From positions 1 to 26,415 of the IMG/VR virus record IMGVR_UViG_3300012207_000011: a stretch of 26,415 nucleotides of DNA, one strand, 5' to 3'. Shown piece after piece: positions 6,343-9,281 of the stretch (positions are counted from its first letter, which is position 1; each line of letters opens with the position of its first letter). Origin of the DNA: a virus. Both the position numbers and the translations under genes were made by a program. The notes below the pieces were generated by a model, which saw only the letters and a program-made list of their open reading frames with translations, did no database searches and was not told where the DNA came from.

Positions 6343-6414
6343 CTTGGCGAGGCGCGGCTTGGCATGGCTCGGCGAGGCGGGTTGTGGAAAGGCGAGGAGC
6401 GGCATGGCTAGGGA

Positions 6415-6454
6415 GGGCGAGTGGCACACATCCGGGTTCGAGTCTCGGACGCCT
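6415..6454 (+). ncRNA. tRNA-T-arm-like minihelix, copy 1
   Basis: A 40-base module. GGGCG (6415-6419) pairs with CGCCT (6450-6454, one G-T wobble). A 12-base linker AGTGGCACACAT follows, then a T-arm: CCGGG, loop TTCGAGT, CTCGG (6432-6448, one wobble). One unpaired A lies between the two helices. The loop matches the tRNA T-loop T54-T55-C56-R57-A58. There is no anticodon arm, so this is not a normal tRNA. ACG follows directly, as in all copies. Transcription is not shown. Confidence 0.6.
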
Positions 6455-6537
6455 ACGCGACGGGGCATGGCAGGGCAGGGTTCCGCGCGGCGCGGCAAGT
6501 CTCGGCTTGGCGCCGCTGGGTTTGGCAGGGGATTGGA

Positions 6538-6578
6538 GGGCGAGTGGAAACGGTTCGAGGTCCGACCCCTCGACGCCC
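6538..6578 (+). ncRNA. tRNA-T-arm-like minihelix, copy 2
   Basis: A 41-base copy with outer helix GGGCG (6538-6542) / CGCCC (6574-6578). The linker is 13 bases and the inner stem is CGAGG / CCTCG closing a 7-base loop TCCGACC (6556-6572). It is the most divergent copy: loop position 55 is C and the linker reads AGTGGAAACGGTT. The 5+5 bp architecture, the single unpaired A and the trailing ACGCA are kept. An overlapping alternative T-loop (GGTTCGAGG) lies just upstream but lacks a good stem. Confidence 0.5.
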
Positions 6579-6692
6579 ACGCACGAGGCACGGCGAGGTT
6601 AGGCCTGGCACGTTCCGGCGGGGACAGGCATGGCGAGGTCCGGCGAGACGTGGACCGGTAAGGCTCGGCGTGGCACGGCGCGGCAGGGATTT

Positions 6693-6732
6693 GGGCGACT
6701 GGCAGTCATCGGGGTTCGAGGCCCCGGCGCCC
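6693..6732 (+). ncRNA. tRNA-T-arm-like minihelix, copy 3
   Basis: A 40-base copy. The outer helix is GGGCG (6693-6697) / CGCCC (6728-6732), extendable by one T-A pair (T6692 with A6733). The linker is ACTGGCAGTCAT. The T-arm is CGGGG, loop TTCGAGG, CCCCG (6710-6726) with perfect pairing. One G separates the helices. ACGCA follows. It has the best pairing of the five. Confidence 0.6.
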
Positions 6733-6744
6733 ACGCACGGCGAG

Positions 6745-6766
6745 GCATGGCAAGTCTTGGCCATGC
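6745..6766 (+). other. Hairpin at the end of array 1
   Basis: GCATGGC (6745-6751) can pair with GCCATGC (6760-6766) across an 8-base loop, a perfect 7-bp stem about 90 bases before the next gene start. No T-run follows, so it is not a standard terminator. It may simply result from the GGC/GCC-rich repeat composition. Confidence 0.4.
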
Positions 6767-6841
6767 ATGGCACGGCAAGGACCTATATGGCATCGCAGGT
6801 CAGTCCACAGGGACAACGACCGCAAGCGTAATGCCCTAACA

Positions 6842-6847
6842 AAGGAG
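6842..6847 (+). promoter_or_regulatory. Strong ribosome binding site deciding a TTG start
   Basis: AAGGAG lies 6 bases before the TTG at 6854 and 18 bases before the ATG at 6866. The spacing favours the rare TTG start. A strong independent site is needed here because, unlike the upstream genes, this gene cannot be reached by start/stop coupling. Confidence 0.75.
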
Positions 6848-6853
6848 AGAACG

Positions 6854-7432
6854 TTGGACATCAAGATGGAGATCACCGGTATCAGCCCCGTGTTGTGCCA
6901 CAACATCGCGCTGGCGGACCCGGATAACCCGTTCACGAAGGAGATCGCGACCTACACGTCGAAGCGGAAGAAGACGGAGGAGGACCGGCGCGCGATCGAG
7001 AAGCTGGAATGGTTCGGCGGCCTCTACACCGACGGTGAGGGCGGGCGACCGGTGATGCCGACCAGCAATATCCGCCGCTGCTTCGTTGAGGCCGGGAAGA
7101 TCAGCAAGCAGGGGCTTCAGGTCACCCGTGCCTTGAGCTTCACCGATCTCAATGTGCCGATCGTCTATGACGGGCCGTCCGACATCAAGAAGCTCTACCT
7201 CGACCCGAGCTATTCGGACCGGTCCGCTGTGGGTGTGTCTGGCAAGCGGGTGATGCGGGTGCGGCCGAAGTTCCCTCGCTGGGCGTTGATCGCGACCGCG
7301 TATCTGCTGGATGACGTGATGGACGTCGACGATTTGCGGCGTATCGCTGACCGGGCTGGTAAGGCAATCGGTTTGGGTGATAACCGGATCAATGGTTTCG
7401 GCCGGTTCACGGTCAACGTGATCGGCGGATAG
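6854..7432 (+). CDS. Phage protein flanked by arrays; weak RAMP/Cas7-like features
   Basis: A 192-residue protein starting at TTG 6854. Three features recall RAMP (Cas7-like, ferredoxin-fold RNA-binding) proteins. The N-terminal strand is MEITGISPVLCHN. A PVMPTSNIRRCFVEAGK segment resembles the RAMP 'IPGSSLKGALR' block. The C terminus IGLGDNRINGFGRFTV resembles the Gly-rich RAMP end. These are short pattern matches, not a proven relationship. The protein also resembles hypothetical proteins seen near recT in other phages. Its 3' third uses more T- and A-ending codons (ttg, ggt, gat) than neighbours, hinting at separate history. It lies between arrays 1 and 2. Confidence 0.8.
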   Translation: MDIKMEITGISPVLCHNIALADPDNPFTKEIATYTSKRKKTEEDRRAIEKLEWFGGLYTDGEGGRPVMPTSNIRRCFVEAGKISKQGLQVTRALSFTDLNVPIVYDGPSDIKKLYLDPSYSDRSAVGVSGKRVMRVRPKFPRWALIATAYLLDDVMDVDDLRRIADRAGKAIGLGDNRINGFGRFTVNVIGG

Positions 7433-7528
7433 CGCGCCGGGGCTGGGCAGGGTTCCGCCAGGCCTGGCCGGGCTGGGAAAGGCCTGTCGGGGCGCGGCAC
7501 GGATAGGCGGGGCGAGGCAAGGGATGGA

Positions 7529-7568
7529 GCGCGGATGGCATACACCCCGGTTCGAGTCCGGGGCGCGC
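7529..7568 (+). ncRNA. tRNA-T-arm-like minihelix, copy 4
   Basis: A 40-base copy in which the outer helix is changed on both strands to GCGCG (7529-7533) / CGCGC (7564-7568), a compensatory change relative to copies 1-3. The linker is GATGGCATACAC. The T-arm is CCCGG, loop TTCGAGT, CCGGG (7546-7562), perfectly paired. A single G separates the helices, and ACG follows. Confidence 0.6.
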
Positions 7569-7671
7569 ACGAAACACGGCTCGGCACCGCATGGCTGGGT
7601 TCGGTACGACTCGGCTAGGTCGGGCTCGGCACGGCATGGCTGGGCCTGGCGAGTCCGGGCGAGGCAGGGAC

Positions 7672-7711
7672 GGGTGGCTGGCAGGCATCGAGGTTCAAGC
7701 CCTCGACACCC
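7672..7711 (+). ncRNA. tRNA-T-arm-like minihelix, copy 5
   Basis: A 40-base copy with outer helix GGGTG (7672-7676) / CACCC (7707-7711), a second compensatory change (C-G to T-A). The linker is GCTGGCAGGCAT. The T-arm is CGAGG, loop TTCAAGC, CCTCG (7689-7705), perfectly paired. A single A separates the helices and ACGCA follows. The A at the loop's fourth position is the other purine normally allowed at tRNA position 57. Confidence 0.6.
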
Positions 7712-7806
7712 ACGCATCGTGGCTAGGCCTGGCGAGGTCTGGCACGGCGCGGCTTTGGCTAGGCGGGGCATGGCTTGGAACCACAGAACACGAGAGGACT
7801 GACGAG

Positions 7807-8343
7807 ATGACGCGACCATTCGAACCATCCCGACCAGACGGCCGATCAGACCGTCAAGTCGTCTACGACCTCACCAGTGAAGCCGAACCCGGCGAACTTT
7901 TCGACTACCACCAACTCACCGACGCCCTCGCCGAAGGCCTCGACGAGAAACCCGACCGCACCCGCGTCTACCGGGCCGTAGCCGCCGCCAACAAGACACT
8001 GCTGCGCGAGCGGAAGCGATACCTCGGCGTCGTCAAAGGACGCGGCTACAAACTCCTCAGCGCCAGCGAACACCTACCCACCGCGCTCGTCCGCAAAGAC
8101 CGGGCACAGACCCACCTCCAGCGCGGCATCGAACTGCTGCGTGACGCACGCCTCGACGAACTCACCGAAGCGCAACGCACGCTCCACGAGGGCCAACTGA
8201 TGATCCTGTCCGGCGTCTACCACGCCGTCCGGGACTCACATAAACGGCACGACAAGACCGACGCCCTGATCGCAGACCTGATGAAAGACAAGCAACGCAT
8301 CGAGGAACGCCTCGAACGGCTCGAACACGACCTCCCCATCTAG
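7807..8343 (+). CDS. Winged-helix-like protein with C-terminal coiled coil
   Basis: A 178-residue protein starting at ATG 7807 with GAGAGGA upstream. Residues ~15-80 look like a winged helix: VVYDLTSEAEPGELFDYHQL, then a recognition-type helix around RTRVYRAVAAANKTLLRERK and a wing VVKGRGYKLL. The remainder is helical and charged, ending in a likely coiled coil (LIADLMKDKQRIEERLERLE) suited to dimerisation. It could be a regulator acting on the nearby arrays, iterons or promoters. Related proteins occur in actinophages but I know no function. It sits between arrays 2 and 3 and the replication initiator, so a role in replication control is plausible inference. Confidence 0.75.
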   Translation: MTRPFEPSRPDGRSDRQVVYDLTSEAEPGELFDYHQLTDALAEGLDEKPDRTRVYRAVAAANKTLLRERKRYLGVVKGRGYKLLSASEHLPTALVRKDRAQTHLQRGIELLRDARLDELTEAQRTLHEGQLMILSGVYHAVRDSHKRHDKTDALIADLMKDKQRIEERLERLEHDLPI

Positions 8344-8352
8344 GCGCCGTAA

Positions 8353-8432
8353 GGCAGGGCAAGGTATGGCGCGGCCAGGTGAGGTATGGCGCGGCCAGGC
8401 CTGGCCTGGCCTGGTCTGGCATGGCTTGGAAG
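8353..8432 (+). repeat. Pentamer array 3: perfect (GGYNN)15
   Basis: From 8353 to 8427 there are fifteen consecutive pentamers GG(C/T)NN with no slip in register (GGCAG, GGCAA, GGTAT, GGCGC, GGCCA, GGTGA...), then GGAAG. A 15-base block repeats at a 20-base offset (8363-8377 and 8383-8397). This array has no T-arm module, although CACCCACA follows at ~8436, reminiscent of the 3' strand of copy 5. It fills the gap between two genes; the AAGGAG before the next gene lies just beyond it. Confidence 0.85.
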
Positions 8433-8462
8433 CAACACCCACAGCGGCAAGGAGATCGACCA

Positions 8463-9281
8463 GTGACCGACGATATCGGCGCGAGTGTGCGCGAATGGGT
8501 TGACGTGGTGCGCCGGGCACGCCTCGGCAAGATCACGAAGACCGTCGCGTTCGCGATTGCGCAGTACGCCGACGCCGACGGCACCCGGGTCTTCCCCGGT
8601 GTGCCCCGGCTGTCGGTGGAATGCGAACTCGCACCGAACACCGTCAAGGTCGCCCTGGCCGCGCTCCGACAGGCCGAACTCATCGAGGTTGTCCGCAAGG
8701 GAACGTCGCGGGGGAACACCGACGAGTACCGACTGATCCTCGGACCGAACGTGATGGACCTAATCGAGGTTCTGTCGCCGAACGAACTGCGGGCGCTGAT
8801 CGACAAGCTTTCGGCGAAACTGCGCGGTCACTACAAGCGGACGCCGCCAGACCTGCGGCCCACCGGACGTGCTGCAGATAAGCCGGACGGGGAAAACCTG
8901 CGGTACGTGGGACGTGCTGCAGTTGCTGCCCACAGCCCTGTGGATAACCCCGACCTGCAGCACGCCGGACGTACCGCAGATGACGACTCGCCCGACGGAC
9001 CTGCAGCACGTTTCACGGGCCGCAGAAACGAACCTGCAGCACGTCCCACGAAAACCTGCAGCACGTCCCACGTGCCCCCACCCTTCAAAGACCTATACAC
9101 AACTACTACCAACCACACGACGGCTGATGTGGAAGTGACCGTCACCGTCCCGCGCGTGAGCAGCCCGGATCAAGAGCCGGATTCCGATTCGGAAGTCAAA
9201 CCCGATCAACGCCGCCACGCCGCACCCGACGAGTCAGAGCACGAACCCACCAACGTCATCCCCATCCGGAGAACCGCATGA
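8463..9281 (+). CDS. Winged-helix replication initiator-like protein carrying iterons
   Basis: A 272-residue protein from GTG 8463, with AAGGAG about 10 bases upstream. Residues ~20-95 are a winged helix-turn-helix: KTVAFAIAQYADADGTRVFP, then LSVECELAPNTVKVALAALR (recognition helix) and LIEVVRKGTSRGNTDEYRL (wing). This is typical of phage replication initiators and DnaD/O-like proteins. The central part (~130-205) has low complexity because it is also a DNA-level repeat cluster, and the C terminus is acidic and disordered. The combination of an initiator with iterons inside its own gene parallels lambda O. No helicase or loader gene follows, so it probably recruits host factors. A transcriptional regulator role is the alternative. 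Confidence 0.72.
   Translation: MTDDIGASVREWVDVVRRARLGKITKTVAFAIAQYADADGTRVFPGVPRLSVECELAPNTVKVALAALRQAELIEVVRKGTSRGNTDEYRLILGPNVMDLIEVLSPNELRALIDKLSAKLRGHYKRTPPDLRPTGRAADKPDGENLRYVGRAAVAAHSPVDNPDLQHAGRTADDDSPDGPAARFTGRRNEPAARPTKTCSTSHVPPPFKDLYTTTTNHTTADVEVTVTVPRVSSPDQEPDSDSEVKPDQRRHAAPDESEHEPTNVIPIRRTA
8852..9075 (+). repeat. Iteron-like dyad cluster (six copies) inside the initiator gene
   Basis: Six copies of a dyad CTGCAGCACGT-NNN-ACGTGCTGCAG start at 8852, 8897, 8954, 9000, 9033 and 9055. The first four are complete 26-base units with left and right arms; the last two keep the left arm perfectly but only part of the right arm. The copies are read in all three codon frames (the first three in one, 9000 and 9033 in a second, 9055 in the third). 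Conservation is therefore of DNA, not of a peptide. These look like binding sites for the encoded initiator, marking a replication origin. Confidence 0.75.
8939..8947 (-). promoter_or_regulatory. Perfect DnaA box within the iteron cluster
   Basis: TGTGGATAA on the + strand is TTATCCACA on the - strand, the exact consensus DnaA box. It lies between iterons 2 and 3. A near match, CTATACACA, occurs at 9093-9101 just past the last iteron, in a locally A/T-richer stretch (about 9078-9122) that could serve for unwinding. Chance occurrence of one 9-mer is possible, but its position in the iteron cluster makes it meaningful. Confidence 0.65.

Follow-up and report, generated by a model that had tools for sequence, protein, structure and literature searches.

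VIPR (Viral Interference Programmable Repeat) is a CRISPR-related system of RNA-guided DNA silencing in phages, which was described in a 2026 preprint (PMC13142463). According to this source, it is phage-borne and consists of the protein Vipr and of vrRNAs with a 3' tail, whose arrays alternate GGY with a variable dinucleotide NN over about 9 to 16 repeats. The vrRNAs of SUSP1 are ~100 nt long and carry a conserved pseudoknot tail at the end of the repeats (PMC13142463). In the SUSP1 and P. fulva systems, the vrRNA is bound by Vipr, its NN dinucleotides recognize double-stranded DNA by pairing in an xNNxNN pattern that skips one target base per unit, and binding represses transcription, the natural targets being chiefly rival phages and satellites (PMC13142463). 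Among the array forms reported there, some are staggered and others are interspersed with hammerhead ribozymes. VIPR is regarded as a CRISPR relative that resembles an ancestor and as a minimal system for programmable DNA binding.

Here, we analyzed a stretch of viral DNA of 26,415 nucleotides (IMG/VR record IMGVR_UViG_3300012207_000011; hereafter the window), in which a first-pass annotation had pointed out intergenic arrays of a degenerate pentamer. These unusual pentamers make up VIPR guide (vrRNA) arrays, and the locus is very probably that of a VIPR system in an actinobacterial-type phage, a reading that draws on its anatomy, on the homology of its genes, on the association of such arrays with vipr and on the structure of the RNA elements between them. 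The terminase is nearest to those of Arthrobacter, Microbacterium, and other actinophages (~25 to 29% identity). The locus puts VIPR in actinobacterial-type phages, some of which are isolates propagated on laboratory hosts: LittleE on M. smegmatis, and Trine and MakoManhole on Gordonia. With SUSP1 VIPR (type II-like with vap1) it shares the gene for the RAMP protein Vipr, a Vap1-like gene, flanking GGY-NN arrays on the same strand and the phage-borne location; in contrast to SUSP1, it has minihelices between the segments, frequent units with one G lost and segments of up to ~20 units. Class 1 CRISPR RAMP backbones (Csm3/Cas7) have in common with it the RAMP fold, a glycine-rich loop and periodic gaps in guide-target pairing, whereas the locus has neither CRISPR repeats nor cas genes and its RNA units measure 5 nt instead of 6 nt.

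Anatomy of the locus and its genes

All arrays of the window are intergenic, are located on the + strand and sit in long intergenic regions flanking vipr (Table 1). Three arrays had been recognized at first, and the period is indeed present in each of them, but they resolve into eight segments of 50 to 110 nt once they are split at the tRNA-like elements (TLEs): arrays 1 (ending at ~6786) and 2 comprise seven sub-arrays with five tRNA-like minihelices between them.

Table 1. Features of the predicted VIPR locus (window coordinates; CM, covariance model)
Feature	Position	Strand	Description	Evidence
vrRNA segment 1 (vr1)	6346..6414	+	14 in-phase units, GGY-NN with one GTTGT	Segmentation, period test
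TLE 1	6415..6458	+	Acceptor stem, linker with GG, T-arm	CM 50.7 bits, E 2e-10; covariation
vrRNA segment 2 (vr2)	6459..6537	+	~15 in-phase units	Segmentation
TLE 2	6538..6582	+	Diverged T-loop TCCGACC	CM 37 bits, E 6e-7
vrRNA segment 3 (vr3)	6583..6692	+	~20 in-phase units	Segmentation
TLE 3	6693..6736	+		CM 56 bits, E 1e-11
vrRNA segment 4 (vr4)	6737..6786	+	Short, 5' of vipr	Segmentation
vipr	6854..7432	+	RAMP-family Vipr protein, TTG start, phrog_4652	PDB 36pp E 2.6e-21; predicted fold; PHROG
vrRNA segment 5 (vr5)	7433..7528	+	~18 in-phase units	Segmentation
TLE 4	7529..7572	+		CM 57 bits, E 6e-12
vrRNA segment 6 (vr6)	7573..7671	+	~18 in-phase units	Segmentation
TLE 5	7672..7715	+		CM 51.8 bits, E 1e-10
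vrRNA segment 7 (vr7)	7716..7781	+	~12 units, one 1-nt phase slip	Segmentation
vap1-like accessory gene	7807..8343	+	phrog_5926	hhalign 98%, E 2e-13 to wV8/LESphi2/Medea1 family; PHROG
vrRNA segment 8 (vr8) = array 3	8344..8433	+	15 GGY-NN + GGA	Period test, segmentation

The gene that separates array 1 from array 2 encodes a Vipr protein, as identified by its sequence match and by the predicted Csm3/Cas7-like RAMP fold. The protein alone matched PDB entry 36pp ("SUSP1 Vipr protein"; Table 1), and a profile of seven relatives did so with an E value of 5e-85. An AlphaFold2 model (43 sequences; pLDDT 92.9, pTM 0.86) had Csm3/Cas7-type RAMP subunits as its top PDB matches in Foldseek (E ~1e-5, TM ~0.5); 36pp was absent from the best matches, the PDB copy searched being limited to releases no later than 8 April 2026. 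Pfam and NCBIfam yielded no match for the protein and PADLOC no strong one, with a single weak match to Cas6. A protein reading 5-base steps had been one of the options raised in the first-pass annotation, and it agrees with a RAMP protein encoded next to the arrays and with the published Vipr ribonucleoprotein, for which NN is the part of each GGY-NN unit that is read (PMC13142463).

The gene ahead of array 3 probably encodes a Vap1 homologue, judging from profile comparison: a profile of the window, LittleE and MakoManhole proteins was matched by hhalign to that of the vipr neighbors from wV8, LESphi2 and Medea1 (Table 1). In wV8 (Felixounavirus), this neighbor corresponds by position to vap1 of the published SUSP1 operon, and the family is named Vap1 here on the basis of synteny and PMC13142463.

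The association between arrays and vipr was quantified in 80 IMG/VR loci chosen on Vipr similarity alone, with a run of at least six GGY-NN units counted as an array and a zone of -1.5 to +2 kb around vipr. Arrays were present near vipr in 51 of these loci. Within the zone, 107 arrays lay on the vipr strand and 3, all from a single locus, on the opposite strand, while the other 353 kb of flanking DNA contained none.

tRNA-like elements between the guide segments

The guide segments of the window are separated by five TLE copies of 44 to 45 nt, which are located directly after vr1, vr2, vr3, vr5, and vr6. The TLE fold comprises an acceptor stem of 5 bp, a linker of 11 nt in which a GG is conserved, a T-stem of 6 bp and a TTCRA loop. 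Its coaxial acceptor/T stack of 11 to 12 bp with a tRNA-type T-loop agrees with the ~12 bp expected of an RNase P/RNase Z substrate, and the GG of the linker may contact the T-loop in the manner of G18/G19 in tRNA. The window copies could be aligned nearly gap-free with those of the Streptomyces phages Camvirus/Likavirus and of LittleE, Trine, and MakoManhole. In this alignment, 96.6% of cells were paired and both sides had changed in 10 of 11 pairs, a level that was reached by none of 500 shuffles and by no slide, and a covariance model built from it recovered all five window copies. Single-sequence folding z-scores were weak, and the evidence for the structure is covariation and not energy.

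As a full-cloverleaf tRNA gene, the TLE was rejected. Rfam returned no family at gathering score, and ARAGORN did not call the TLEs of the window and gave only one odd tRNA-??? over a TLE in locus L273; the Camvirus/Likavirus minihelix likewise matched no Rfam family and received no ARAGORN call. The discriminator/CCA end is imperfect compared with tRNA. With mascRNA and related tRNA-like structures, the TLE shares the acceptor stem, the T-arm and the TTCRA T-loop, and a weak mascRNA match was obtained at two TLEs, but this match (18 versus 42.5 bits) is far under the Rfam gathering score and the TLE has neither D nor anticodon arm.

The covariance model placed TLEs next to arrays in loci L261, L266, L271, L273, L287, L306, L016, and L046, and TLE-punctuated arrays were found in LittleE, MakoManhole, Trine/L273, L261, L266, L271, L287, and L306. 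Across loci, the inter-TLE segments measure ~65 to 135 nt, near the ~100 nt of SUSP1 vrRNAs. TLE-pattern loci in IMG/VR were sampled by one sequence pattern, so that the counts are not frequencies: Vipr was encoded in 7 of 77, all seven with arrays beside the TLEs (one of them, L456, shares a contig with L261), and neither Vipr nor arrays were present in the stretch examined of the other 70. Since TLEs stand between ordinary genes at these 70 loci, they are not VIPR-specific, and a role in RNA stability instead of cutting is possible. In the Streptomyces phages Camvirus and Likavirus, the TLE occupies most early intergenic gaps, and this structured RNA element is directly testable for a role in phage mRNA. 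It is possibly a general mRNA punctuation element of Arquatrovirinae. Vanseggelen, Izzy, and Endor1 (L008, L009, and L011, all Streptomyces phages) carry it in most early-gene gaps, with acceptor stems that vary in sequence and keep their self-complementarity, and have no VIPR arrays in the stretch read. In Gordonia phage Trine, the annotated start of gene 40 (L253, 4591-5394) appears too early; the N-terminal third of its product consists of translated TLEs and GGY-NN arrays.

By analogy with SUSP1, the arrays of the window would in all probability be transcribed together with the early operon and the vrRNAs loaded with Vipr into a ribonucleoprotein, in which each segment would silence a single gene in a rival phage, prophage, or satellite. 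Host tRNA-maturation enzymes would recognize the minihelices and release single guides, with RNase P acting on the 5' flank of the TLE and RNase Z or exonucleases on its 3' flank. We consider this cutting fairly likely, and the locus suggests that single guides are made in a host-dependent way. tRNA-gRNA arrays are in use in CRISPR engineering. The proposed processing would resemble these engineered arrays and have a counterpart in other VIPR types, namely their hammerhead-separated arrays. The latter also have structured RNA elements interspersed among vrRNAs (PMC13142463), but the spacer in the window is a lookalike of the tRNA acceptor/T-arm and not a self-cleaving ribozyme. We give an even chance to natural tRNA-like/guide-RNA arrays in phages, with host-enzyme-cut 44-nt minihelices between VIPR guides and the minihelix as a general punctuation of Streptomyces phage early genes that VIPR adopted, or the reverse. 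TLE minihelices separating VIPR guides are new here: a literature search for such tRNA-like elements in phages found none, and the main text of PMC13142463 does not mention them or contain the term "tRNA", although tRNA-like spacers may appear in its supplement.

Alternatively, each vrRNA could end in the TLE as a 3' tail or handle to which Vipr binds, equivalent to the pseudoknot tail in SUSP1. The TLE lies directly after the last repeats, where the conserved tail is found in SUSP1 vrRNAs (PMC13142463), and one fold is common to all five copies; a small hairpin ahead of the TLE is not evident in the window, where the tail role could therefore fall to the TLE as well. However, LittleE and L271 have a separate short hairpin between array and TLE, which fits an order of array, tail, and cleavable spacer, and many phages carry TLEs yet have no Vipr or arrays. 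On balance, a tail function appears rather unlikely. Hairpins of other kinds were seen as well: in L048 (2145-2429), hairpins that resemble one another (GGCAAACACACTGCATC...GTTTGC) come after each of three arrays and represent another type of tail or spacer for vrRNAs, and in L251 (3500-3990; Pseudomonas phage LESphi2, LESB58 prophage 2) vipr has several upstream arrays and hairpins.

Period and composition of the repeat units

The period was compared with 1000 dinucleotide-preserving shuffles per array. GG pairs 5 nt apart numbered 41 in array 1 (shuffles, 14.9 ± 3.5; maximum, 27), 40 in array 2 (14.6 ± 3.4; maximum, 25), and 16 in array 3 (2.7 ± 1.5; maximum, 9). All three arrays thus have a genuine GG-N3 period, far above that of the shuffles, and the selection on this rhythm that had been suggested from the first inspection is borne out. 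Of the unit counts given at that stage, the 14 units in array 1 are correct, with one non-GG unit among them, whereas the fifteen unbroken units of array 3 are its GGY units, the complete GGNNN run comprising 16 without a break (shuffle maximum, 5). On the minus strand, GGNNN runs of at least five units were not found. The units have the form GG-Y-NN, with GGC in most and NN free; certain units have lost one G and kept phase and pyrimidine.

Such losses are not peculiar to the window. In VIPR arrays overall, ~16 to 26% of internal units are short of a G, and most of these retain one G, the pyrimidine and the phase. The GGY consensus is thus looser than is apparent, and a loss of one G as a TLE-specific trait was rejected, as it occurs in other VIPR arrays too (26% versus 16%). 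Non-GG units or a phase slip in certain segments are counter-evidence to the VIPR reading, and these segments may be decaying. Together with the short vr4, they could also mean that the entire VIPR locus is decaying and inactive in this phage, but this is improbable with vipr and vap1 intact and with one-G-lost units that mostly keep phase and pyrimidine and are common in other loci.

To characterize the NN dinucleotides, 386 non-redundant arrays were used, with NN modeled as a coding target whose wobble base is skipped. The likelihood was best for codon positions 1-2 (-14010 versus -14176 and -15046). None of 1000 permutations attained the observed within-locus strand coherence of NN, either at positions 1-2 (z 4.1) or at positions 2-3 (z 4.5). 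As this holds for both, coherence supports a 3-base target step, and it is the likelihood that decides the phase. In this respect, NN behaves like a protein-coding target from which the wobble base is left out, in line with a DNA target code that skips one nucleotide.

The first-pass annotation had also considered two-tier G-quadruplexes in RNA or single-stranded DNA, which might regulate translation or replication. GG-N3 runs can form them in principle and the sense strand is nearly always the G-rich one, but neither the pyrimidine at position 3 and the strict 5-nt phase nor the same-strand link to the RAMP gene vipr and the strand-coherent, codon-like NN are predicted by such structures, which makes them a very improbable explanation.

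Well over 80 loci in IMG/VR matched the pattern (GGYNN)8, the majority degenerate as in the window, with GC contents of ~0.4 to 0.7, and the same two genes adjoined the arrays in several that were inspected. Absence from relatives, raised earlier as a sign of local slippage, is contradicted by these loci. Viral contigs carry the pattern chiefly in the degenerate form, whereas in cellular genomes it mostly consists of uniform microsatellites, with few degenerate exceptions that are phage-derived in appearance. The units of the window are degenerate, GGY being kept while NN varies, and the initial impression that they are unlike a simple microsatellite was right. Neutral slippage of a GGCNN microsatellite that expanded and then decayed has in its favor the tandem pentamers and the uniform GGYNN microsatellites of cellular genomes, but it is contradicted by arrays confined to the vipr surroundings, by the retained GGY and by the NN statistics (adjacent NN identical in 7.5% versus 7.2% expected), and its probability is close to nil.

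Target searches and further repeats

IMG/VR was searched for xNN targets with vr8, taken as two halves, and with cores of 9 units from vr3, vr6, and vr1; vr8 was also searched in 8 actinobacterial genomes, and one LittleE guide in 401 genomes from the same family as a Nocardia genome. No convincing target emerged from these searches or from tblastn with decoded peptides, which counts against the VIPR reading. The best candidate, a 21/26 match in a contig of 32% GC, was judged to be due to chance. Decoding of vr3 yields T[DE]YLTPG[HQ][IM][DE]P[DE]VP[KN]SVTA[RS]; the peptide-like look of the window guides is an impression.

Two further repeat regions were observed in the window. At the contig start (1-232), a 24-bp tandem repeat of 9.7 copies is probably coding. 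Several 22- to 27-bp repeats, direct and inverted (CTGCAG...CACGT type), are located at 8851-9072 within a replication-initiator-like gene and could be origin iterons.
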